Positions 32,993-63,032 of a stretch of DNA of 64,000 bases are shown one piece after another. Origin of the DNA: Thermoplasmata archaeon (GTDB lineage Archaea > Thermoplasmatota > E2 > DHVEG-1); assembly GCA_020054495.1 (NCBI GenBank), contig JAHWGK010000004.1, forward strand, positions 26,912-90,911. The letters are read 5' to 3'. Position numbers and translations under genes: made by a program. The notes beneath the pieces are model-generated. The model was not told where the DNA came from. It saw only the letters and a program-made list of their open reading frames with translations, and searched no databases. Positions within the stretch are counted from its first letter, which is position 1, and each line of letters opens with the position of its first letter.

Positions 32993-34270
32993 ATAGCTGA
33001 GTTTGAAGCAGCAGTCGGGATGTCCCGAAAGTGGGATGCAAGAGAAGCAGGTAAAGAAGTAGCTAGAAATACAATTAAAAAGCTTAAGGTTCCTCCTGAT
33101 TTTTTCCTTTTGTTTTCTACTATTCATTATGAAAAACATGGTGGATTTGAGGAGTTTCTAAAAGGAATATGGGAAGTATTACCAGAAGGGACACCACTTA
33201 TTGGAGGAACAGTTGCAGGATTTATAAATCCATATGGATGTTATACAAGAGGTGTAACTGCTATAGCTGTATCTTATCCAAATATGGATGTTGCTATAGG
33301 ATTTGGAAAGGGTACTAAAAGGAATCCAAAGAAATCTGCAAAAAAATGTGCAGAAATGATTAAAAATAAACTAAAAAATTCAAAATATTCAAATAAATTT
33401 ATTTTTGACATAATCTCTGGGGGATTAGTTCCCAAAATACCAGGTATGGGGAGAAAGAAAGTAATAAAAGGTTTAACAAGTAAATTGGCAATTTATCTAT
33501 CAAATTTTTCATTATTCATTTTTCAAAAGGGGGTTGGTCGTGAAGAAGAGGTATTAAATGAATTTTCAAAATATTTTAATGATTATTATATTTTACATTT
33601 TTCTTCAATGGATGATGGTAGAGCAATGAGTAATTATCAATTTTTAAACAAAACAGTTGAAACAAATATGATAGTAGCATTTGGTATATCTATTGATATG
33701 AAAATGAGTGTGAATTCAAGTCTTAATCTAAAAGAAATAAAAAAGTTTGATGTTAATAAATTAAGTAAAGACGGTAGGATTATTCATGAGATAAATGGCA
33801 AACCTGCTGCTGAAGAGTTTCTTAATTTACTTGGTTGGCCTGAACATTATTTAGATGAAAGACTGTTTAAAAGAACGTTTTTCTACCCTCTTGGGTTTAA
33901 AAAAAATGATGAATGGATCGCAGAAATTGTAGGAATAGTTCCTGGTAAATCTATAACAGTTTTGCATAAAATCTATAATAAGGAAATGGCAATTTTATCT
34001 GCTAGTGGGAAAAATTTAATAGAGGCTGTACGAAATAATCTAAGTAATATAGGTTGTGAAAATTCTTTAATAGGTGTCATCTCAACTTGTGATGGGAGAT
34101 TAGAAGCTTTAGGTTCACAAGTTTTTAAAGTTCAAGACGAAATTATAAAATTTTTCAATAACAAACCCTTTATCGCTTTATATTGTGGAGGCGAAGGTGC
34201 AAAGAAACCTCATGAGAATATTAAATATGGAAATGTTACTTTTAACACTTTTATTTTAAAAAATAAATAG
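32993..34270 (+). CDS. FIST-domain sensor protein
   Basis: VGMSRKWDAREAGKEVARNTIKKL...PLIGGTVAGFINPYGCYTRGVTAIAVSYPNMDVAIGFG. Frame opens upstream of ATG 33020 with no canonical start; GGAGGGG (32979-32985) sits 7 nt before ATA 32993. Confidence 0.82.
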   Translation: MAEFEAAVGMSRKWDAREAGKEVARNTIKKLKVPPDFFLLFSTIHYEKHGGFEEFLKGIWEVLPEGTPLIGGTVAGFINPYGCYTRGVTAIAVSYPNMDVAIGFGKGTKRNPKKSAKKCAEMIKNKLKNSKYSNKFIFDIISGGLVPKIPGMGRKKVIKGLTSKLAIYLSNFSLFIFQKGVGREEEVLNEFSKYFNDYYILHFSSMDDGRAMSNYQFLNKTVETNMIVAFGISIDMKMSVNSSLNLKEIKKFDVNKLSKDGRIIHEINGKPAAEEFLNLLGWPEHYLDERLFKRTFFYPLGFKKNDEWIAEIVGIVPGKSITVLHKIYNKEMAILSASGKNLIEAVRNNLSNIGCENSLIGVISTCDGRLEALGSQVFKVQDEIIKFFNNKPFIALYCGGEGAKKPHENIKYGNVTFNTFILKNK

Positions 34271-34279
34271 GTTTATTCA

Positions 34280-35347
34280 TTACCATCCAATTTTATTAGA
34301 TAGGTCATATGCTTTATAAAGATCTAAATATTTACGATAAAAAATAATACTCTTTATTGTTGCTAAAAATGTAACACCATCTCTAAATGGCTCCATATGT
34401 GATTGAAGTTCTGTATTATCCATAGTTTTCAATTTTTCAAATGCTTTCAGGAAAATATCAGAAGAAAAATCAGATTTTAACCATTCTTTTTCATAATTAT
34501 CTGGTTTTCCTACAACAATAGATTTAGCTGCATATTTACCCGCAACCATTGCTGGTCTAATACCTCCTTTTGTAATAGCATTTGTTTGACCTGCTGCATC
34601 TCCTAACAAAAGAATCCTACCAAGAGAATATTTTTTAACTCCGCCGAAGCTTAAAAATCTGCTTTGTTTCGTTAAAATTTTTTCTTTTGGTTTAAATTTC
34701 TCTTTTTTTATGAATGGAAACCCAATTTTTACGTTATCTTCATGTGGAAATTCCCAAAGGTAATCTCCTTTGTATTTTTCATCATAATAAAAAGATAATA
34801 AACCATGTTCCGGCTCTTTTTTTATAATGTATTGAAGAAACAGTTTTTTTCTACTTACTAAACCTAGACTTTTACCAATTGACGAGTTAGCTCCATCTGC
34901 TGCTATTACATAATCATATTCGTTATATTCATTCCCGAATTTTACTTTTACTTTATTTTTATTTTGTTTAATTGAAAGAACTCTTTTTTCTTTGTAGTTA
35001 CCTCCAGATTTTTCGAATTGATTTATAATTGATTTTAGAAAAATTTCTCTATTTATAATATAACCCTTCATTTTAGTTTTAATTGAGATATCACCCGGGT
35101 AATATTCCATTATTGAATTTACCTTTTCAACTAATCCATCTAATTTTAATGGATTTAAATCTTCAAGTAATTCTTCCCTTATTGCTTCTCCACACATATC
35201 ATGATATATAGAGTATCTCTTTGGATCCAATTTGTCTACTAACTCAACTTCGATATTATTATCTCTATCAAAATGTTTAAGAAAATAAGCAGCACTAGAT
35301 CCTCCAGGTCCAGCACCAACGACAAGAACATTACAATCTTTTTTCAT
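34280..35347 (-). CDS. FAD-dependent oxidoreductase, geranylgeranyl reductase family
   Basis: NVLVVGAGPGGSSAAYFLKHF, DYVIAADGANSSIGKSLG, RILLLGDAAGQTNAITKGGIRPAMVAGKYAAKSI. Confidence 0.87.
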   Translation of the reverse strand: MKKDCNVLVVGAGPGGSSAAYFLKHFDRDNNIEVELVDKLDPKRYSIYHDMCGEAIREELLEDLNPLKLDGLVEKVNSIMEYYPGDISIKTKMKGYIINREIFLKSIINQFEKSGGNYKEKRVLSIKQNKNKVKVKFGNEYNEYDYVIAADGANSSIGKSLGLVSRKKLFLQYIIKKEPEHGLLSFYYDEKYKGDYLWEFPHEDNVKIGFPFIKKEKFKPKEKILTKQSRFLSFGGVKKYSLGRILLLGDAAGQTNAITKGGIRPAMVAGKYAAKSIVVGKPDNYEKEWLKSDFSSDIFLKAFEKLKTMDNTELQSHMEPFRDGVTFLATIKSIIFYRKYLDLYKAYDLSNKIGW

Positions 35348-35522
35348 ATTTATTATTACAATAAAAAACCGATTTAAAATATCTTCGAATTTTTGATTGT
35401 AAAATAGATTTTTAGTAAATAATAATAAGGAGTTTTATATATAATAGAATCAAACTAGCTAAATAAAGAAAATGTAATAACTTATATTGTTATATTAATT
35501 ATCGATAAAGGAGGAAAGAATT

Positions 35523-36650
35523 CTGACAATCAAGATAATTAAATATGAAGATAAGTTTGAAAAAGATGCTTTAAAACTTTTTTATCAATCTGTTTTTCAT
35601 AATCGCAAGGAATTTGAATATGCACGATTACCTTCTTGGTATCATCGTTATTCTTTAGAAAATGACAATATTATTCGTCTTGCTGTTGAAGATGATAAAA
35701 TCATTGGTACACTTGGATTAATATCTTACTCAGGACATTATCAAAGTAAAAAATCGAAATTAGGATTTTTTGTTGATAATTGTGTACTACCTGAATATGA
35801 ATATGAAGAAGTTATGATAAAGTTATTTGAAAGTATAGAAAAAGAAGCAAAAAAATCTAAAATTGATTTTATTTTAGGTTGGGATTATAAAACGAAAACT
35901 GAATTAAATAAACCCCTCTACAAAAAAATGGATTATTCAATTATTGATGGTATTAATTGGTTTGGTGGTGGAACAAAGCATGTAGATGCTTTTTATGTGA
36001 ACGATTTTAGACTTTTTATCCTATGGAAGTTTTTATTGAAATTGGTATCTTATAAACAATATCGTAACGAAAAAAAGTTAAAACCATTAAGCAATGAAAA
36101 AATAAGAAAAATGAAAGAAAATGACATACCACAAATAGTTGAGTTAATAAATTCTCAAAATAAAAAAATGGAATTCTCACCAATATACACAGCTGATTTA
36201 CTTGAAAAAATTATAAAAAAATATCAAGCTAAAGGTTATGTGGTTGAATTAAAAAATAAAATAATCGGTGTAATTATCCTCTTTTATGCTCCTTGGAGTG
36301 GTTGGATGTACGGAAAACCAGAATATTCAAAATCTTATGGTTTCCTATTAATAAAACATTCATTAGAATTTGCAATTAAACAAGATTTTTCAGAAAAAAT
36401 TGCTCCGCATTTACTTTTTAGAGCTATGAAAGATGAAAATAAAAAAGGATATTTTATGTTAGTCGATGTCTTTGATCGCAGAATCGATTGGTTAAGAAAA
36501 GCTTTTTTAGATATTGGAGCAGATGAACTACCATATGATTTTGGAACAATTATTATAAAAAACCTGTCTGGAAAAAAAGTTGAATTAAAGAAACCTATTT
36601 ATATCCCTACCAACCTTGTTATAAGCCCATATATTTCAAAAGATTATTAA
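35523..36650 (+). CDS. GNAT-like acetyltransferase with non-canonical start (CTG 35523 or ATT 35520)
   Basis: Coding frame continues 97 codons upstream of the listed ATG 35814 (TIKIIKYEDKFEKDALKLFYQSVFHNRKEFEYARLPSWYHRYSLENDNIIRLAVEDDKIIGTLGLISYSG...); AAAGGAGG precedes it. Confidence 0.68.
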   Translation: MTIKIIKYEDKFEKDALKLFYQSVFHNRKEFEYARLPSWYHRYSLENDNIIRLAVEDDKIIGTLGLISYSGHYQSKKSKLGFFVDNCVLPEYEYEEVMIKLFESIEKEAKKSKIDFILGWDYKTKTELNKPLYKKMDYSIIDGINWFGGGTKHVDAFYVNDFRLFILWKFLLKLVSYKQYRNEKKLKPLSNEKIRKMKENDIPQIVELINSQNKKMEFSPIYTADLLEKIIKKYQAKGYVVELKNKIIGVIILFYAPWSGWMYGKPEYSKSYGFLLIKHSLEFAIKQDFSEKIAPHLLFRAMKDENKKGYFMLVDVFDRRIDWLRKAFLDIGADELPYDFGTIIIKNLSGKKVELKKPIYIPTNLVISPYISKDY

Positions 36651-36678
36651 AATAACATCTTATCCTGATAATGTAATT

Positions 36679-36858
36679 ATGATTAAAATTATAAAAGAAA
36701 AATGTATAAGTTGCATTGCATGTATTTCTGCTTGTCCTCATGATTGTATACGAGTAGATGGGCTTTTTGTTAGTTTTAAAGATAACGGTTTTTGTAATAA
36801 TTGTGATGAAAAATATTGTAAAGTGCTTTGTCCTACGGGTGCTATTATCTTGGATTAA
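36679..36858 (+). CDS. Small 2x[4Fe-4S]-type ferredoxin (59 aa), missing from ORF track
   Basis: MIKIIKEKCISCIACISACPHDCIRVDGLFVSFKDNGFCNNCDEKYCKVLCPTGAIILD*. Confidence 0.9.
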   Translation: MIKIIKEKCISCIACISACPHDCIRVDGLFVSFKDNGFCNNCDEKYCKVLCPTGAIILD

Positions 36859-38116
36859 TTTCAATTTTTAAGTCTTTTTCATCAATTAATTTTCTTGCAT
36901 AATCTAGAAGTTCTTCTGATTTTTTATATTTTAATGCATTTTCCAGTTCTTTTCCATCCCAATCAATAATTTCTAATTCAAGCATTGATATAAGTATAGT
37001 TTTAACATCGATATCTAAATCTTTTGAGATAATACTACTAATATTATCTTTTATTTTTACCGTTTTTCTTCCTTCTGTTCCAATAAAACTATCTTCATAT
37101 TCTTTTGGATAATTTTTTAAAAGATTTAAATCATTTTTTTCGATTGATACTGCGACAGTTTTTCCAGCAATAATTGCTGCTTGCCATCCAGGAATTATTC
37201 CTTCTCCAACATATGAAAAATTCTGATTAGCTGAATCTCCTACTAGAATAGTATTTCCATGGACAAAATCCAATGGATATGAAAGATCGATAATTCCTCC
37301 TTTTATCTCAAGTGGTGAAGAATCTTTCAACTGTCTTTTCATTTCTTTGTTTTTTTCAGATAGATCATAAAATAGTTCAATCGGAGATTTATATTTCAAT
37401 GGATTTTTTCCATAATATGGTCTTGCCCCAACTCCAACATCTGCTCTATCATTTCCTTTTGGAAATATATAGCCATATCCTCCCATTATTTCTCCCATAA
37501 AAAGTTGCATTGTATTTGGAAAATCTAAATTTAAATTTGCAGCTTCAATTTCTATTGCGCAACCCCAGTCTTTTATCCCTTCGATATTGTTATTTTTAAT
37601 AACTTGTTTTCTAATAAAAGATGTTGCACCATCTGCGCCTACAACAATTTTAGGATGTATTATTAGATCTCCTTTAATTGTCTTTGCTTTTACCTCTTTA
37701 ATATTTTCTCCAACAAAGGATGCATCATGTACAGTTGTTCCCAAACTTAATTGAGCGCCAGCATTAATAGCTTGTTGAGCTAAATTTTTCTCTACCTCTT
37801 TTCTGTTTAACATCAGTGAAATCCATTTGTCTTCCCTGCTTGTTATTTTAGATATAGGATTATAGATGATTGTTTCATTTATTGGCCATCTATATACATT
37901 TTTTAAAACAGGTATTTCTTCATACATTGATTCAAATAAAAATTTACTAACTGCTTCTCCTCCTCTTAATGGTGCTGCTATTTCATTTTTTCTATCTACT
38001 GTTAAAACATCTGCTCCGTTTTTTGCAGCAATATATGAAAAAACTGTTCCTATTGGGCCAGCTCCAACAACTAAAACATCACACTTTATCGTTGACATAA
38101 GGATTGAGGCTATCAA
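36845..38116 (-). CDS. FAD-dependent oxidoreductase, geranylgeranyl reductase/FixC-like family
   Basis: CDVLVVGAGPIGTVFSYIAAKNGADVLTVDRK, PKIVVGADGATSFIRKQV, NTILVGDSANQNFSYVGEGIIPGWQAAIIAGK. Confidence 0.88.
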   Translation of the reverse strand: MIASILMSTIKCDVLVVGAGPIGTVFSYIAAKNGADVLTVDRKNEIAAPLRGGEAVSKFLFESMYEEIPVLKNVYRWPINETIIYNPISKITSREDKWISLMLNRKEVEKNLAQQAINAGAQLSLGTTVHDASFVGENIKEVKAKTIKGDLIIHPKIVVGADGATSFIRKQVIKNNNIEGIKDWGCAIEIEAANLNLDFPNTMQLFMGEIMGGYGYIFPKGNDRADVGVGARPYYGKNPLKYKSPIELFYDLSEKNKEMKRQLKDSSPLEIKGGIIDLSYPLDFVHGNTILVGDSANQNFSYVGEGIIPGWQAAIIAGKTVAVSIEKNDLNLLKNYPKEYEDSFIGTEGRKTVKIKDNISSIISKDLDIDVKTILISMLELEIIDWDGKELENALKYKKSEELLDYARKLIDEKDLKIEINPR

Positions 38117-38145
38117 TTATTTTATTAAAAACCTTATCATATTTA

Positions 38146-38712
38146 TTAACAAGCTACAGGTTTTGGTTTTGATATTGATCTACTATACATTCTCATTACA
38201 AGATATGCACCATCAAAAAGCAACATTGCAACAAAGAAATACCAAGGAAATAAACCCATAAACACGACATAAAGAATCGCAAGTTTTGTAAGCCATCTCT
38301 GATCAAAAAAGGATATAAACACTTTATGTGAAAATCTTTTTTCCTCATGGATTTTACTATTGTATTCTATTACATCATTTCCTACCTCATCAAGCAATGC
38401 TGCAGCCACAAGCATTAGTAAGGGTAAAACTAAAAGTTGAATTCCTGATATTATAATAAAAGCTAAGATAACAAACAAACCAAGTATATGAGCTTGATTA
38501 TCAATTTTACCCTTTATGAATACGCCAAGAATAACTGCAAGAAGAATAGTTGCAGAAACCTGATCAATTATCATCGTATACGCCCAAAGAGCTCCAATAA
38601 ATGGTGCCAAAATTAAAGCAAATTTTTTATTAAACGTTTTTTCATCAAATGCATCATCTATATATTTAAGTCCAGCACCAAGAAGAGGGTAGGATAATAG
38701 AAATATATACAT
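38146..38712 (-). CDS. Polytopic membrane protein, paralogue of 38842-39441
   Basis: Shared KYIDxAxDEKTFNKKxAL, WAYTMII, GKIDNxAHxxGL, SFFDQRW blocks. Confidence 0.75.
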   Translation of the reverse strand: MYIFLLSYPLLGAGLKYIDDAFDEKTFNKKFALILAPFIGALWAYTMIIDQVSATILLAVILGVFIKGKIDNQAHILGLFVILAFIIISGIQLLVLPLLMLVAAALLDEVGNDVIEYNSKIHEEKRFSHKVFISFFDQRWLTKLAILYVVFMGLFPWYFFVAMLLFDGAYLVMRMYSRSISKPKPVAC

Positions 38713-38841
38713 TAAGGCATTTCCTCACCAATTTTTTCCAAGCTTTTTTTCTCTCCATTTCAGTTTATTATTAACCAATGTTATGTTTATTATCATTTTT
38801 CGCAGATGATTGTGTAGGTAGTTATGTAGACAGCTTTTATT

Positions 38842-39441
38842 TTATGCAGTTATTCTTTCAGGTTTTGCAACTGTTTTAACTGGAAGTTTAATTGTTTGTT
38901 TTGATTGGCTGTATAATCTTACACTGACATATGAATAATCAAACACTATCATTGCAAGGAAGAATAATATAGGAACAATACCTGTAATACATAGACCAAG
39001 GATTGTTACTTTCAGTACCCACCTTTGGTCAAAAAATGATACAACAAACTTATGTGTTAATTTATTTGTATTCATTTTATCTTTTTTCTTATCTATAAAA
39101 TCATTTCCGAACTCGTCAAGTAGTGCAGCAATACCAAGAATGATTAGGGGGATAATTAGAAGTTGAACACCTGCAAAAAAGATGATTGCAAAAATTACAA
39201 TAAGACCTGCAAGATGTGCATAATTGTCAATTTTACCTTTAAATAGAACTCCAATAACAACCGATAAAAGAATTGTTGCAGCAACTGGGTTTATAATCAT
39301 TGTATAAGCCCATAGAAGTCCTAAAAATGGTGCCACACAAAGTGCAACTTTTTTATTAAACGTTTTTTCATCATATGCTGCATCTATATATTTTATACCG
39401 GCACCAAGTATTCCAAATGATATTAAAAAGAAATAAATCAT
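38842..39441 (-). CDS. Polytopic membrane protein, paralogue of 38146-38712
   Basis: Shared sequence blocks with neighbour; multiple hydrophobic helices. Confidence 0.75.
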   Translation of the reverse strand: MIYFFLISFGILGAGIKYIDAAYDEKTFNKKVALCVAPFLGLLWAYTMIINPVAATILLSVVIGVLFKGKIDNYAHLAGLIVIFAIIFFAGVQLLIIPLIILGIAALLDEFGNDFIDKKKDKMNTNKLTHKFVVSFFDQRWVLKVTILGLCITGIVPILFFLAMIVFDYSYVSVRLYSQSKQTIKLPVKTVAKPERITA

Positions 39442-39626
39442 TAATTAACACCCTCCATCAGTTCATATTCGGAATTTTTAAAATCTGGGTAGTAGACATC
39501 TTTTTTTGATATTGATATATGATGAATGATTTCGATGTTCTTTATGAGCGGATAGATATCCATTTTATTGCCTTTCATTTCTTTACCCCAAATATAATAA
39601 TAAGTTATGTTAACATAAAGCCCCAT
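39441..39626 (-). CDS. Small ORF (61 aa or shorter) directly upstream of membrane protein gene
   Basis: Stop/start overlap (TAATG) with 38842-39441; internal Met candidates MKGNKMDIYPL...; coding status uncertain. Confidence 0.4.
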   Translation of the reverse strand: MGLYVNITYYYIWGKEMKGNKMDIYPLIKNIEIIHHISISKKDVYYPDFKNSEYELMEGVN

Positions 39627-39635
39627 ATCGAGAAA

Positions 39636-39683
39636 TTCCTACAAAATTCCAAAATCGGCAATTTTTTTTTATTTTTGTAGGAA
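39636..39683. repeat. 11-bp perfect inverted repeat TTCCTACAAAA/TTTTGTAGGAA
   Basis: Arms 39636-39646 and 39673-39683, 26-nt spacer, between radical SAM gene and the 61-aa ORF. Confidence 0.75.
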
Positions 39684-39716
39684 AAATGGTAAAAAACCCT
39701 AAATCAAGAATAAACA

Positions 39717-41627
39717 CTAAGAAACTGGAGTTGCTAGTAAATCACGTTCTGTTTTTTCTTTTTTCAAACTCCCATAAACCTTGCTATAACTTAATGGTAG
39801 AGATAAATACAGATCCTCTTCCTTGAAAACAATACCTGTTTCTTCAAAGTTGTTTAAAATGTTTTTCAAGTCGGTATCTGAGATATTTGAAAATATCTCT
39901 TGCAACTCTTGATGGGAGATTACATCAATGCAAGATAAAAAGATATCTCGCTCTAGTTGATTAAGCATATAAATCATTACATTTTCACGGTTTCGAACAT
40001 CAATAATTTTTAAGAAAGTTTTACCATCAACATAATAAAATACTAGTTGATCAAAGATTGTTTTCCTTTTCAAACCCTCGATTGCTCGCTGTTCAAGTTC
40101 AGTTTCCCATTCTTTTACTAGTTGTTTCCAGTTGTTTTCCTTATGTTGTTGTTTTCTTTTAAACTGGCTAAAAAAACAAAAATTGTGCTCTAATATTTCA
40201 GGAGGATACATGATTGTGTCAATAATTTTAGGCTCAAGTTTTTCAATGTTAAATTTTTCATATTGTTCATATATTGGGCTTTCAAAACCTAAAATAAATT
40301 TACTAATTTGTGGCGGGTCAAGATATTGCTTAAAAAGTTTAATGGTTTGTTCAGTTTCTTCAAAATCTTTTGTTTCCTCATTAGGATAGTTTATAATAAT
40401 GTTATATACGTTTGAAATGCTATTTTCTTTACAGTATTTTAATGCAGCAATGTTATCAATGATTCTTACTCCTTTATTCATCTTTTTTATATAGTTGGAA
40501 CTAAAAGCCTCAATACCTATTTGAATATGATTAAAACCTGCTTTTTTTAATAATGAATAATCTTCACTTTTTAATTGTCCGGCTCTTGCTTCAACATAAA
40601 AATCAAAGTCTTTTTCAAGTTTCATGAGCTTCTCACAAAACCTATGGAAATCATGTTGCGGTAGTGTGTTTCCAATGATTTGAAATGATAATATTTTGTA
40701 TGTATCAGATAAAAAAGTTAGTTCTTCGATGAAACGTTCAACATTTTTTTCACGGTATTTTTTATGATATGCTTGAAGGTTACAAAATGTACATTTATTC
40801 CACCAGCAACCACGAGAAAATTCAATGGGAAGTCGTCCAAAAAGAGAATAGTATTGTTTTATTTCATCTGAAATATTGTTAAGATCTTGATAATATGATT
40901 GAAAATTGGGGACTGGAAGACTGTTTAGATCAATAAAATTATCATTTTTATTCCAAATAATCTCTTCTCCATTTCTAAATATTAACCCTGGAATTGATTT
41001 AATGTTACTATAATCAGATGCTAGAAGAAATAGTGGTTCTTCGCCCTCGCCTGAAACAATAAAATCTAGCCAATCAAATGTTTTCAAAATCTTTTTTCCA
41101 AGCTTGTTGATGGTTGTGCTGCCTCCAAATACAATAGTTTTTTCAGGATAAGTTTCCTTAATTTTTTTTGCAATTGCTAAAGATGGTAGAAATTGTCCAT
41201 AATTCAATGTAAAACCAATAATATTATATGGCTTCCAATCAACTTGGTTAAGAGCCCAAGTGAAAAAACTATCGGATTTTTCAACATATTTGTTAAAAGG
41301 AAAATCATTCAGAAATTCATCATTACCAATTATATTATCGTAAAAATATCTAAACTTTTCAACATTTTTTTCCCAATAATCTGGAAAAAGATATTTTGAA
41401 AACACCATCTGAGCAGTATAAGAGTCATTTGGGTTATTAATCAAATAATTATAATTATGCAATCCATAAAAATCAGCTGTTTTTAGATAAAGATGTTTCG
41501 TATTTATATTGATATCTCTTTCTTTTAAATATGACTCAAGTAAGGATAACTGTATTGATGGTATACTTGTTTCAGCAAAAGGCATAGCTACAAGTAATAC
41601 GGATTTTTCTTCGGTATGCATCCTCAT
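39717..41627 (-). CDS. B12-binding radical SAM protein resembling RiPP maturation radical SAM C-methyltransferases (RiPP maturation radical SAM protein 1-like)
   Basis: SIPSIQLSLLESYLKER, GFTLNYGQFLPSLAIAKKIKE, IVFGGSTT, VSGEGEEPL, LPIEFSRGCWWNKCTFCNLQAYHKKYREKNVERFIEEL, then ARAGQLKSEDYSLLKKAGFNHIQIGIEAFSS. Confidence 0.78.
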   Translation of the reverse strand: MRMHTEEKSVLLVAMPFAETSIPSIQLSLLESYLKERDININTKHLYLKTADFYGLHNYNYLINNPNDSYTAQMVFSKYLFPDYWEKNVEKFRYFYDNIIGNDEFLNDFPFNKYVEKSDSFFTWALNQVDWKPYNIIGFTLNYGQFLPSLAIAKKIKETYPEKTIVFGGSTTINKLGKKILKTFDWLDFIVSGEGEEPLFLLASDYSNIKSIPGLIFRNGEEIIWNKNDNFIDLNSLPVPNFQSYYQDLNNISDEIKQYYSLFGRLPIEFSRGCWWNKCTFCNLQAYHKKYREKNVERFIEELTFLSDTYKILSFQIIGNTLPQHDFHRFCEKLMKLEKDFDFYVEARAGQLKSEDYSLLKKAGFNHIQIGIEAFSSNYIKKMNKGVRIIDNIAALKYCKENSISNVYNIIINYPNEETKDFEETEQTIKLFKQYLDPPQISKFILGFESPIYEQYEKFNIEKLEPKIIDTIMYPPEILEHNFCFFSQFKRKQQHKENNWKQLVKEWETELEQRAIEGLKRKTIFDQLVFYYVDGKTFLKIIDVRNRENVMIYMLNQLERDIFLSCIDVISHQELQEIFSNISDTDLKNILNNFEETGIVFKEEDLYLSLPLSYSKVYGSLKKEKTERDLLATPVS

Positions 41628-41678
41628 CCTTATTTATTTCAATAAATTATGCGTTTAAATATTTAACTAAAAAGAGCA

Positions 41679-41690
41679 ATTTTGCAAAAT
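41679..41690. promoter_or_regulatory. Perfect palindrome ATTTTGCAAAAT in divergent promoter region
   Basis: 12-bp perfect palindrome between radical SAM and Lrp-like regulator; TTAAATATTTAA palindrome/TATA-like at 41655-41666. Confidence 0.45.
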
Positions 41691-41730
41691 ACTAAAATAT
41701 AGGAATATAGCTCTAGTTTTTGAAGTAAAG

Positions 41731-42708
41731 ATGGTAAAACTGGATTTGAAGGATAGGAAAATCCTCTATGAACTTGATTTAAATTGCAGGCAATCAAATT
41801 CACAAATTGGAAAAAAAGTAGGATTAAAAAGAGATGTTGTAGCTTATAGAATAAAAAAGCTTCAAGATGAAGGAATAATTAAAAATTTTTGGACATTTAT
41901 TGATACCTTTAAATTAGGATACAATGTATTCAGATTATACATAAATTTTCAATATATGACTTCAGAACTTAAAAAAGAGATTGTACAATATTTTGTTAAT
42001 TATAAGAACTCATGGGTAGTTATTTCTGTAAAAAGTGAAATTGATCTAGCTGTAGTTATTTGGGTTAAGGATATATTTGAATTTTATCAATTTTGGAACA
42101 AAACGCTTGATAAATATGAAGATAATTTTTCAAAATATTCCATTTCAATTTATACCCAGTCTATCGTTTATAAAAAATCATATTTACTGCCTGGAGAAGC
42201 AGAGAAATCTGATAGGATAATAAGCGATATGCACTGTGGCGGGATACCTGTTACAATAGATGAAACTGATTATAAATTATTAAATGAAATTGCTGAAAAT
42301 GCTCGTGTTCCCTTAATTGAACTTTCTGAGAAACTTGGATGCTCATCACAAAGTATAAATTATAGAATTAAGAATCTAGTTAAATCAGGCGTTATTAAGG
42401 GTTTTAGAGTAAACCTAGATCTTTCAAAATTAGATTTACATCATTATAAAGTCGATATTTATCTAAAAGATCATAAACTAAAGAACTCAATTTTGAAGTA
42501 TTTAGCGGATAAACCTTATGTAGAATACATGAATTTATCTATTGGTTGGTCAGATTTAGGACCTGAATTTGTTGTAAAAGATTTTGATGAATTAATGAAA
42601 ATTTTAGATGAAGTTAATAATAAATTTTCAGGCGTGATAAAAAGACAATCATATTTTATTACTGAAAAAATACATAAAATTCGTTGTTTGCCAGAACTAA
42701 CATTTTAA
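41731..42708 (+). CDS. Lrp/AsnC-like regulator with two HTH units
   Basis: LDLKDRKILYELDLNCRQSNSQIGKKVGLKRDVVAYRIKKLQDEGIIKNF and IDETDYKLLNEIAENARVPLIELSEKLGCSSQSINYRIKNLVKSGVIKGF. Confidence 0.85.
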   Translation: MVKLDLKDRKILYELDLNCRQSNSQIGKKVGLKRDVVAYRIKKLQDEGIIKNFWTFIDTFKLGYNVFRLYINFQYMTSELKKEIVQYFVNYKNSWVVISVKSEIDLAVVIWVKDIFEFYQFWNKTLDKYEDNFSKYSISIYTQSIVYKKSYLLPGEAEKSDRIISDMHCGGIPVTIDETDYKLLNEIAENARVPLIELSEKLGCSSQSINYRIKNLVKSGVIKGFRVNLDLSKLDLHHYKVDIYLKDHKLKNSILKYLADKPYVEYMNLSIGWSDLGPEFVVKDFDELMKILDEVNNKFSGVIKRQSYFITEKIHKIRCLPELTF

Positions 42709-42729
42709 AAAAATCATATTTACCTTATT

Positions 42730-42825
42730 TTAAAGACCAGCTGACATATACCAACCTGCAGCTGCTGCTATAGCACCCGCAACGGCTCCAGTTATTACCA
42801 TTTTTTCCATATTTTTTCCCACCAT
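42730..42825 (-). CDS. Candidate tiny peptide MVGKNMEKMVITGAVAGAIAAAAGWYMSAGL (or from MEKMV at 42810)
   Basis: 31-aa ORF; GGTGGG SD-like sequence 5' of the ATG at 42810; ends 22 nt from convergent regulator; TATA-like TTTAAATA at 42872-42879. Confidence 0.45.
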   Translation of the reverse strand: MVGKNMEKMVITGAVAGAIAAAAGWYMSAGL

Positions 42826-43042
42826 CCTTCATATCGTCATATCTTGACATGGTATATTTTCCCATTGATAGTATTTAAATCTATCGTGACAGAATACCAA
42901 AACGCAAAAAAGACACATTTAAATATGAAAAAATTTACTGTATAACCAAAAAATATTAATGACATATACTATTATAACCCAGATACTGGAACAAAAAATC
43001 TTAATTTACCTTCTCATTGGTTAATTACTTAAAAAAATGTTA

Positions 43043-43543
43043 TTATTTTTTTAGATCAAGTATTATTTCAGCAGCCCACTTTGCAGCATTGCCAGATACC
43101 GCTGGGCATTTGTCGACATGGGCTCCTGCTTTTTCAAACTCAGAATAATCCTTTGGGTCTAAAAGGTTAAATGTTCTTCCAAAAAGCTTCTTGTGAATAT
43201 CCTTGCATCTCATACATTCATATTCTTTATAAAACTTATCATAAAGTTTCTTTGAATACATAAAAACCCGTCTTTTTCGTTCACCTGTGCTAAAATCCTT
43301 ATATGTTCTTCCAGCGACAGATCCTATTGCAAGCAACCCTCCGACTAAAGCACCACAAGTTCCCTCGGTTGTAAGAGCAGTTCCACCTGCCATTGCATCA
43401 GCTGCTTGGATTGTATCAGGATTTCCTACATCAAGAACTTCATATATTGCAGCAAGAACACATTGTGGGCAGCTTCCACGTTCTGCTTCATACTTATATG
43501 CAAGGTGATAGACTTTTTCAAGAATTTTATCTCGTGAATCCAT
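43043..43543 (-). CDS. C_GCAxxG_C_C family redox-type protein
   Basis: CPQCVLAAIYEVL...AMAGGTALTTEGTCGALVGGLLAIG...CMRCKDIHKKLFG. Confidence 0.85.
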   Translation of the reverse strand: MDSRDKILEKVYHLAYKYEAERGSCPQCVLAAIYEVLDVGNPDTIQAADAMAGGTALTTEGTCGALVGGLLAIGSVAGRTYKDFSTGERKRRVFMYSKKLYDKFYKEYECMRCKDIHKKLFGRTFNLLDPKDYSEFEKAGAHVDKCPAVSGNAAKWAAEIILDLKK

Positions 43544-43570
43544 GCTATACCTCGATGTAAACAGATTTTT

Positions 43571-44335
43571 TTAGCCGTACATTTGAGTTGGAATTGGCGG
43601 TATCGATGGAGCTGTTGGTCTAGATTGTTTCATAAACTTCCTAATATTATCTTCTATTTGCTTTGCTTCTTTATACAACGGCTTTGGGTCAATTTTTATT
43701 TCGGGAAGCATAACGTCAATTTTTTTCAACAAATTCCCAGCAGCTCTTGAATCAGGATAAGACGCATGTGCCTCAGAAAGTAAACAAATAACATCACGTT
43801 GCATTAGAACACTCTCATATAGGAGAACACCTGTTACACCCGTGATCATACCCTCCTTTGTCTCCTCGATTTTATATTTCTTAAGAAAATTTTTCATCTT
43901 AGGATTACTCCCAACTCCATACACCTTGAAAACCTTTTTCTTAGCGCCTGTCGCATGTGTTCCTTCTAAAGAAGCAACAATCTTACATCCTTTTTCATCA
44001 GTCCATTGAAGGATACGATCAGCCAAAGGTTTTATAATGTTATATGGTGGCATAAATTCAGAGATTATCACTGCGAGCTGCTCACAGGTACCATCCGGTC
44101 CACATTTACGCTCTCCCGCATAAATTCGAACAGGTGGAGACGGTTTTGAATTATGTATAATTGTTACAGGCATAAACTCTTTTGAAACAATAGCTCCTAT
44201 CTCATCAAGTTTTAATGAGTCAATAATAAAATGACCTGCAATTGAACTAATCAATCCAACTGTTGGAAAAGCAACAACGCACAAACTATTGGATAAATCT
44301 ATTTCTTTATATTCAATTAATTCAATATCTTCCAT
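43571..44335 (-). CDS. PAC2 family protein (proteasome assembly chaperone-like, COG2047-type)
   Basis: VVAFPTVGLISSIAGHFIIDSLKLDEIGAI, RIYAGERKCGPDGTCEQLAVIISEF, VTGVLLYESV. Confidence 0.85.
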   Translation of the reverse strand: MEDIELIEYKEIDLSNSLCVVAFPTVGLISSIAGHFIIDSLKLDEIGAIVSKEFMPVTIIHNSKPSPPVRIYAGERKCGPDGTCEQLAVIISEFMPPYNIIKPLADRILQWTDEKGCKIVASLEGTHATGAKKKVFKVYGVGSNPKMKNFLKKYKIEETKEGMITGVTGVLLYESVLMQRDVICLLSEAHASYPDSRAAGNLLKKIDVMLPEIKIDPKPLYKEAKQIEDNIRKFMKQSRPTAPSIPPIPTQMYG

Positions 44336-62045: not shown

Positions 62046-63032
62046 ATGGACCAATTAGACCTTAAAGATAGGAAAATACTCTATCAACTAAATCTTAATT
62101 GCCGTCAATCTAATACCTAGATAGGTAAAAAGGTTGGACTGTCAAAACAAGTTGTAGATTATCATATTAAAAGGATGGAAGACGAATCTATTATCACTGG
62201 TTATCAGACCGTTATTAATTCTTTTCAATTAGGTTATGATGTTTATAGATATTATATAACATTTCAAAATGCAACTCAGAAAATCAAAGACGAAATTATT
62301 GACTTTTTAATTCAATATAAAAACATGTGGACTGTTTATTCAACATCTGGGTTATTTGATTTAAGTATACTTATTTGGGTTAAAGACATTAGAAAATTTC
62401 AATTATTCTGGGAGGAATTGAACGATACATATGGAGATTATATATCTGAAAAAATCTATTCTGCGCTTCTATATTTTAATACTTATAATCATACGTATTT
62501 AATTCAAGATAGCTATTCCAAATCAGAAAGAAGTAAGTATATTCAAGTTAGACATGGGCCCCTTGTTGAAATTGATAAATTAGATTATGATTTATTAAAT
62601 ATTATTGTTTCAAATGCTCGAAAGCCCATAATCGAAATAGCAAAAAAACTCAACTGTTCCTCTCAGACTGTAAATTATCGGATAAAAAACCTAATGGAAA
62701 AAGGAGTAATTAAATTGTTTAAAGCTGGAATTAATTATTCAAAACTTAATCTTAAACAAATAGGCCTTGGAATTTGGCTTAGAAAACTATCCAAAAGAAG
62801 GGAAATATGGAAATTTTTTGGAAATAATCCACATGTAACATATATTCTAACATGTGCAGGTTATGCAGATTTACAAATAGAAATAATTATTGAAAGCCAA
62901 AATGGATTGGAAGATCTTATGAATGAGGTCTCAGAAAAATTTCCGGCGTCTATTAGAAATTATAATTTTTTTACAATCAAGAATCAATATCTATTTAGAT
63001 GTTTGCCTGATATGAAAGTTAAGTTAAAGTAA
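62046..63032 (+). pseudogene. Lrp/AsnC-like double-HTH regulator, paralogue of 41731-42708, interrupted by one in-frame TAG at 62118-62120
   Basis: MDQLDLKDRKILYQLNLNCRQSNT*IGKKVGLSKQVVDYHIKRMEDESIITGYQ... aligns with paralogue RQSNSQIGKKVGL; ggagg SD before ATG 62046. Confidence 0.8.

Follow-up and report, generated by a model that had tools for sequence, protein, structure and literature searches.

Overview of the locus

The window analyzed here is a stretch of 64,000 nucleotides from the genome of a Thermoplasmata archaeon (contig JAHWGK010000004.1). Between positions 39717 and 42891 it carries a cobalamin-dependent radical S-adenosylmethionine (SAM) enzyme, a regulator of the Lrp/AsnC type and a very small peptide gene with its own promoter. 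This three-gene unit of peptide, B12 enzyme and paired regulator looks like an undescribed archaeal system that makes, and perhaps senses, a modified peptide. Its features are as follows.

39717..41627, minus strand: cobalamin-dependent radical SAM enzyme, 636 aa, CX4CX2C branch of TIGR03975 (by TIGR03975 score, PF02310 in orthologues, fold matches and motif alignment)
41731..42708, plus strand: Lrp/AsnC-type regulator with two modules, 325 aa; its gene diverges from that of the enzyme and converges with the peptide gene; HTH_AsnC and HTH_24 each matched twice
42730..42810, minus strand: gene of the precursor peptide MEKMVITGAVAGAIAAAAGWYMSAGL, 26 aa and a stop codon (in 24 radical SAM loci a relative lies upstream of the enzyme; profile match; coding selection)
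42818..42829, minus strand: Shine-Dalgarno region AAGGATGGTGGG of the peptide gene, with AAGGATGGTGAG conserved in 19 aligned promoters
42835..42849, minus strand: dyad TGTCAAGATATGACG between TATA box and Shine-Dalgarno region, a candidate operator or 5' untranslated region hairpin
42872..42891, minus strand: upstream element and TATA box of the peptide gene, TGTCACGATAG + TTTAAATA; 71.6 bits with promoter model R1, next best in the window 9.4 bits

The source metagenome-assembled genome falls in a Thermoplasmatota family whose named members, among others SM1-50, SG8-52-3, M9B1D and 3300003432D, hold the same locus. These four belong to the Thermoprofundales, or Marine Benthic Group D (MBG-D), uncultured archaea that rank with the most widespread in sediments (PMC6461988). 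An orthologue of the enzyme is present in 30 of the 46 family genomes, and of the 392 genomes of the phylum that were searched, just one from outside the family matched at 1e-60; by this sequence comparison the enzyme branch is confined to a single family. A mobile or viral origin of the locus is unsupported, as no relative was found among viral contigs.

The cobalamin radical SAM enzyme

A sequence-only reading of this DNA had pointed out a radical SAM motif and a downstream block in the 636-residue protein, and both are present (PIEFSRGCWWNKCTFCNL and EARAGQLKSEDYSLLKKAGFNHIQIGIEAF). The same reading saw a likeness to maturation enzymes of ribosomally synthesized and post-translationally modified peptides (RiPPs), and the search that it proposed agrees with this: TIGR03975, the family of RiPP maturation radical SAM C-methyltransferases, matches the protein with 363.8 bits against a cut-off of 281.85, over profile positions 1-606 of 606. 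The runner-up families are BchE (102.8 bits) and HpnR (74.3 bits), a placement outside the non-RiPP families that would have spoken against the reading; a hopanoid, BchE-like, MCR-methylase or YgiQ-like identity was rejected on scores well under the cut-offs or on the TIGR03975 score. Two more MBG-D orthologues, L041 and L045, also exceed the TIGR03975 cut-off. The proposed B12-binding N-terminus is weak in the window protein itself and emerges from its relatives, with PF02310 detected in 21 of the 22 aligned orthologues (best E 1.7e-5) and the radical SAM core, PF04055, in all 22. Top fold matches of the AlphaFold model (pLDDT 87.5, pTM 0.86) are likewise cobalamin radical SAM enzymes, namely OxsB, CysS, TokK, MgmA and TsrM.

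In the alignment, the cluster motif of this branch reads CWW---NKCTFC (CX4CX2C), versus CWWGxxxxCxFC (CX7CX2C) in bacterial members and in L162. The canonical spacing is found in L162-L165, the MBG-D branch being three residues shorter, and the cysteines of CWWNKCTFC are invariant in 22/22 orthologues. The Poy and Bot enzymes carry a Cx7Cx2C motif (PMC5682303), which is usual in the characterized members of these types but does not define the TIGR03975 cut-off. Because this motif is lacking, we class the MBG-D enzyme as a variant branch and not as an ordinary member; judged from its sequence, it is TIGR03975 by cut-off, yet a distinct variant. Bacterial relatives with 24-28% identity adjoin precursors of known types, from the pheganomycin family (L165) and the NHLP clan (L164). 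The genome that holds the window has a second copy of the enzyme (56% identity), which comes with a separate regulator and a different peptide. In genome G005 the gene is broken by in-frame stops into open reading frames (ORFs) of 517 and 112 aa (L036:4466-6387), either a decayed gene or an assembly error, and its peptide and regulator look intact.

The precursor peptide gene

Past the 3' end of the regulator, on the opposite strand, nearly every locus holds a hydrophobic ORF of 24-34 aa behind a AAGGATGGTGAG-type Shine-Dalgarno site, and 36 such candidate precursors were gathered (those of L171, L172 and L174 by reading regulator neighborhoods). The sequence-only reading had offered several frames for the window copy. 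The 26-aa frame stands, starting at the ATG behind AAGGATGGTGGG and matching the peptide profile genome-wide at E 3.1e-6; the 31-aa start was rejected because it lacks its own Shine-Dalgarno site, and the alternative of 41-46 aa because another frame is the conserved one.

The link between peptide and enzyme, which had been put forward as unproven, gains strong support from position, co-occurrence, coding selection and the conserved promoter. All 24 precursors linked to a radical SAM gene lie upstream of it on the same strand, with start-to-start distances of 124-3650 bp, and a short ORF is thus conserved beside the homologues. The peptide is the direct upstream neighbor of the enzyme in five loci (L034, L044, L085, L086, L089). 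Since the regulator is located elsewhere in four of the 24 loci and none was found nearby in a fifth, this link is independent of the regulator. The peptide occurs in 26 of the 30 genomes with the enzyme versus 1 of the 16 without it (Fisher p 1.1e-7). When the 46 genomes were searched with the peptide profile, every match at E < 0.002 was a short frame of 28-64 aa, and those whose neighborhoods were read adjoin the enzyme or the regulator, except L157 (neither within the 13 kb read).

As a control for chance, an ORF of this kind was found in 13 of 14 regulator-adjacent regions versus 12 of 4200 dinucleotide shuffles, and in none on the other strand. Sequence pairs for the coding test were chosen by nucleotide identity and given out-of-frame controls, a choice by amino-acid identity being biased. 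In these non-independent pairs pN/pS is 0.41 in frame versus 0.88 and 1.82 out of frame, and the differences fall 122/66/220 on the three codon positions. Such comparisons indicate that the tiny ORF is a real gene and point to purifying selection in the 26-aa frame only.

Position 2 of the peptide is Glu or Asp in 26/36 sequences and is followed by a hydrophobic Gly/Ala/Val/Ile part and then by a variable tail, which may be the modified core. At least two hydrophobic-x-Pro units are found in the tails of 13/36 peptides (e.g., SSICPSICPSICPK, GVMPLQAVMPKLF, SICPSICPSICPK), and the tails in the clade of the window peptide are mostly aromatic instead (GWYMSAGL, STWVMPSL, STWCMSTGL). No NCBIfam family matched the precursors above cut-off; at 24-34 aa they have no long folded leader of the Proteusin or Nif11/NHLP kind. 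Two further precursor genes, L160:1-75 (MEILIIGAVASAVAATMAICPGICP...) and L218:1-46 (MEKIILSAALAAAISI...), are cut by contig ends in genomes G015 and G016, in which no full radical SAM gene was found. More distant peptide-regulator cassettes at L172:2646 and L174:2546 carry other tails (MYPYFRSLIG and AWCFRSIAI) and lie away from any radical SAM gene seen.

The regulator and its cassettes

As the sequence-only reading had it, the regulator at 41731-42708 on the plus strand is Lrp-like and divergent from the enzyme gene; it has two AsnC/Lrp-type helix-turn-helix modules. Both halves of its profile match PDB chains of the Lrp family, and the RAM ligand domain (PF01037) scores below cut-off (E 0.0023). 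Double-Lrp regulators form a multi-copy family in these genomes. The window protein belongs to a nine-member clade of it (support 100/100), and every member has a linked peptide.

Peptide and regulator travel as cassettes. Genome G057 has three of them in tandem beside one enzyme gene, the regulator of the window clade being paired with an aromatic tail and the other two with Cys-Pro tails, and cassettes unlinked to the enzyme are found in G058, G059, G001 and G023. Across 22 single-copy loci, the partial correlation between peptide and regulator given the enzyme is 0.60 (p 0.0005), and that between peptide and enzyme given the regulator is 0.27 (p 0.0055). Peptide divergence thus follows regulator divergence more than enzyme divergence, a pattern that either cognate recognition or closer linkage could produce.

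Elsewhere in the window, a second double-Lrp copy at 62046-63014 (43% identity) has an in-frame TAG and lies beside an apparent transposase gene. It is probably a pseudogene, and no peptide was found next to it. A few other regulator copies in the relatives also hold TAG or TAA.

The promoter and its regulon

The precursor promoters have in common TTGACATTnTGTCACGA, a TATA box, TATATCATG, a dyad (TGTCA-N5-TGACA or TGATA-N5-TATCA) and a Shine-Dalgarno site. A perfect 5-5-5 dyad is present in 19/36 of them versus 5% of shuffles, the window copy pairing at 4/5 positions, and no Rfam element was found in 38000-44000. Promoter model R1 returned 33 promoters at E < 0.01 in the genome of the window and matches in 46/46 family genomes, with the precursors scoring highest, and no match in 10 genomes outside the family. 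In most MBG-D genomes (G000 and relatives, L187-L234), tens of promoters carry the element TTTTGACATTTTnACACGA with its TATA box. Further R1 promoters lie in front of genes for stand-alone receiver proteins, for surface proteins of the PKD, Hint and beta-helix types, for a C25 peptidase and for membrane proteins of the HGSNAT type. Because the dyad is only slightly enriched outside the precursors (6/44 vs 4%), it is the upstream element that appears as the feature common to the regulon. By this motif comparison, the precursor promoter is part of a regulon that spans the family. Genome G015 has 26 such promoters (E <= 1) and no double-Lrp regulator was detected in it.

Comparison with known systems

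The locus resembles those of the TIGR03975 C-methyltransferases (polytheonamide PoyB/PoyC, bottromycin and pheganomycin-type relatives) in the full-length match above cut-off, the cobalamin radical SAM architecture and the precursor gene upstream. It differs from them in the CX4CX2C motif, precursors of 24-34 aa without a long leader, the paired Lrp-type regulator, its archaeal host and its restriction to one lineage. Another Thermoplasmatota genome, G203, encodes a canonical CX7CX2C TIGR03975 enzyme (L162:3166-5594, 553 bits), beside which a 116-aa ORF with a hydrophobic Ala/Val/Gly end (KVAILVAVAAVGAAAYAVLWLWGPD) is a candidate long-leader precursor. Unlike the MBG-D peptides, this candidate has a long N-terminal leader-like part and lies downstream of its enzyme, and the MBG-D peptides resemble its hydrophobic end only.

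A second likeness is found in streptococci, where genes of short hydrophobic peptides (SHP) adjoin regulators, those of Group III overlapping and converging with rgg, and where radical-SAM-modified peptides (RaS-RiPPs) are linked to the SHP/Rgg circuit (PMC13361665). Shared with the MBG-D locus are a short hydrophobic peptide adjoining a regulator, convergent in one group, and radical-SAM-modified peptides tied to the circuit. The MBG-D locus differs in its double Lrp/AsnC-type regulator, which is not of the RRNPP/TPR type, in its cobalamin-dependent enzyme class and in its archaeal host; moreover, one and the same peptide would partner the regulator and be acted on by the enzyme. By analogy, the MBG-D system may work like SHP/Rgg without being a member, as its regulator is not RRNPP/TPR. 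It would work like a RiPP locus, with a layout like that of SHP/Rgg pairs.

Our literature search returned named archaeal lanthipeptide, YcaO, sactipeptide and ranthipeptide loci, and no cobalamin radical SAM C-methylated peptides for the MBG-D lineage. The system offers 36 short precursor sequences that can be tested cheaply and mostly come with a cognate enzyme, and a CX4CX2C variant of the C-methyltransferase. The peptide would be an unusually small substrate for studies of radical C-methylation, and its pairing with a regulator makes archaeal peptide signaling directly testable.

Proposed function and alternatives

The compact archaeal peptide-modification system suggested by the sequence-only reading is largely borne out. 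We consider it likely, with good confidence, that this is a compact RiPP-type locus of MBG-D, where the peptide is C-methylated by the enzyme and is under the control of the regulator, which may also sense it. A hydrophobic peptide of 24-34 residues would be made from its own regulated promoter; its acidic and Gly-Ala-Val-Ile N-terminal part is conserved, and its C-terminal tail is variable, often with repeats of hydrophobic-x-Pro. The cobalamin enzyme would most likely methylate sp3 carbons of this peptide. The precursor would be of a leaderless type, its conserved N-terminal part serving as recognition region because there is no long leader. The double-Lrp regulator adjoining each peptide gene would control that gene, probably via half-sites of the TGTCA/TGACA type that surround the TATA box; it may also be adapted to its own peptide. 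Comparison across genomes shows the genes and how they are conserved, ordered and paired, along with their co-occurrence, coding selection and promoter; we infer that the enzyme takes the peptide as its substrate and C-methylates it, and that the dyad is a binding site of the regulator. Export of the mature peptide from the cell, with a role as a signal or an antimicrobial, is speculative.

Several observations weigh against a RiPP-type locus. Radical SAM genes without a peptide in reach occur in L042, L045 and L084, the first two having a peptide cassette elsewhere in the genome, and peptide cassettes occur in assemblies without a detected enzyme (G059). One regulator sub-clade (L167-L170) has no peptide, and tighter linkage may partly explain the peptide-regulator correlation. 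Sequence searches gave no RiPP recognition element (RRE) in the enzyme, the C-terminal part of its model having a strand-strand-strand-helix-helix-helix order suggestive of one. No conserved leader peptidase, exporter or immunity gene was found in the locus neighborhoods, a dedicated leader peptidase or exporter being common, not universal, in RiPP loci. Finally, the peptide may be nothing more than a tiny membrane protein of an ordinary kind. It is quite improbable, in our judgment, that it is such an unmodified protein or a regulatory element of the Lrp-type regulator, and that the enzyme has a lipid or another protein as its target. Regulator and peptide do occur without a nearby enzyme, and geranylgeranyl-reductase-like genes flank some loci, but the placement of the enzyme in TIGR03975, the strict upstream co-directional position in all 24 loci (five without a regulator in between), the significant co-occurrence and the proline-motif repeats of the tail all argue against this reading.

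What a modified peptide would do is a matter of two tentative proposals. As a refinement of the RiPP-type locus, it is possible, if somewhat unlikely, that the modified hydrophobic peptide is an autoinducer with the double-Lrp regulator as its intracellular receptor, SHP/Rgg-like with unrelated parts. The cassettes move and duplicate as units, the peptide diverges with its regulator more than with the enzyme, and SHP genes likewise adjoin regulators (PMC13361665). The precursor promoter is, in addition, common to a regulon of surface, secreted and receiver-domain genes, but this promoter is in all 46 genomes, some of which have no detected enzyme or regulator, and no importer or exporter gene is linked. 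The known ligands of Lrp-type ligand domains, moreover, are amino acids, not peptides. A full archaeal peptide communication system, with a modified pheromone, a cognate double-Lrp receptor, several cassettes served by one enzyme and a shared promoter linking a regulon of surface and receiver-domain proteins and secreted peptidases, seems to us unlikely. Doubtful as well, though possible, is a small membrane-active, bacteriocin-like methylated RiPP directed against competitors, with the membrane proteins described below as immunity in some strains. The hydrophobic Gly/Ala/Val-rich sequence, the variable tails, a single weak match, below threshold, to a family of class IIb bacteriocins (E 0.069) and the membrane proteins beside the locus in 8 genomes are in line with it, but most loci have no adjacent membrane protein, there is no exporter or peptidase, and an antimicrobial role does not predict the tight pairing with a regulator.

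Flanking membrane proteins and neighboring genes

Two further genes downstream of the enzyme had been proposed to act in export or immunity.

38842..39441, minus strand: multi-spanning membrane protein, 199 aa, optional accessory, in 11/46 genomes, no Pfam family above cut-off, no solved fold
38146..38712, minus strand: paralogous membrane protein, 188 aa, 54% identical to the 199-aa protein

The paralogous pair is as described by the sequence-only reading; the role given to it finds weak support in the position beside the enzyme in 8 of the 11 genomes that have such proteins, and none in a solved fold. Their co-occurrence with the enzyme reaches only p 0.07, tandem pairs are also seen in G013, G020 and G023, and the proteins would be an optional accessory of the locus. 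Neither protein matched a Pfam family above cut-off, and a PDB fold search with the model (pLDDT 80.3) gave no match below E 0.6. Both are 8-helix proteins with conserved acidic motifs (KYIDDAFDEK and LLDEVGND). Farther along, 33020-38116 encodes a FIST-domain protein and two geranylgeranyl-reductase-like flavoproteins; similar genes near some radical SAM loci (L033, L037) suggest a partly conserved neighborhood.

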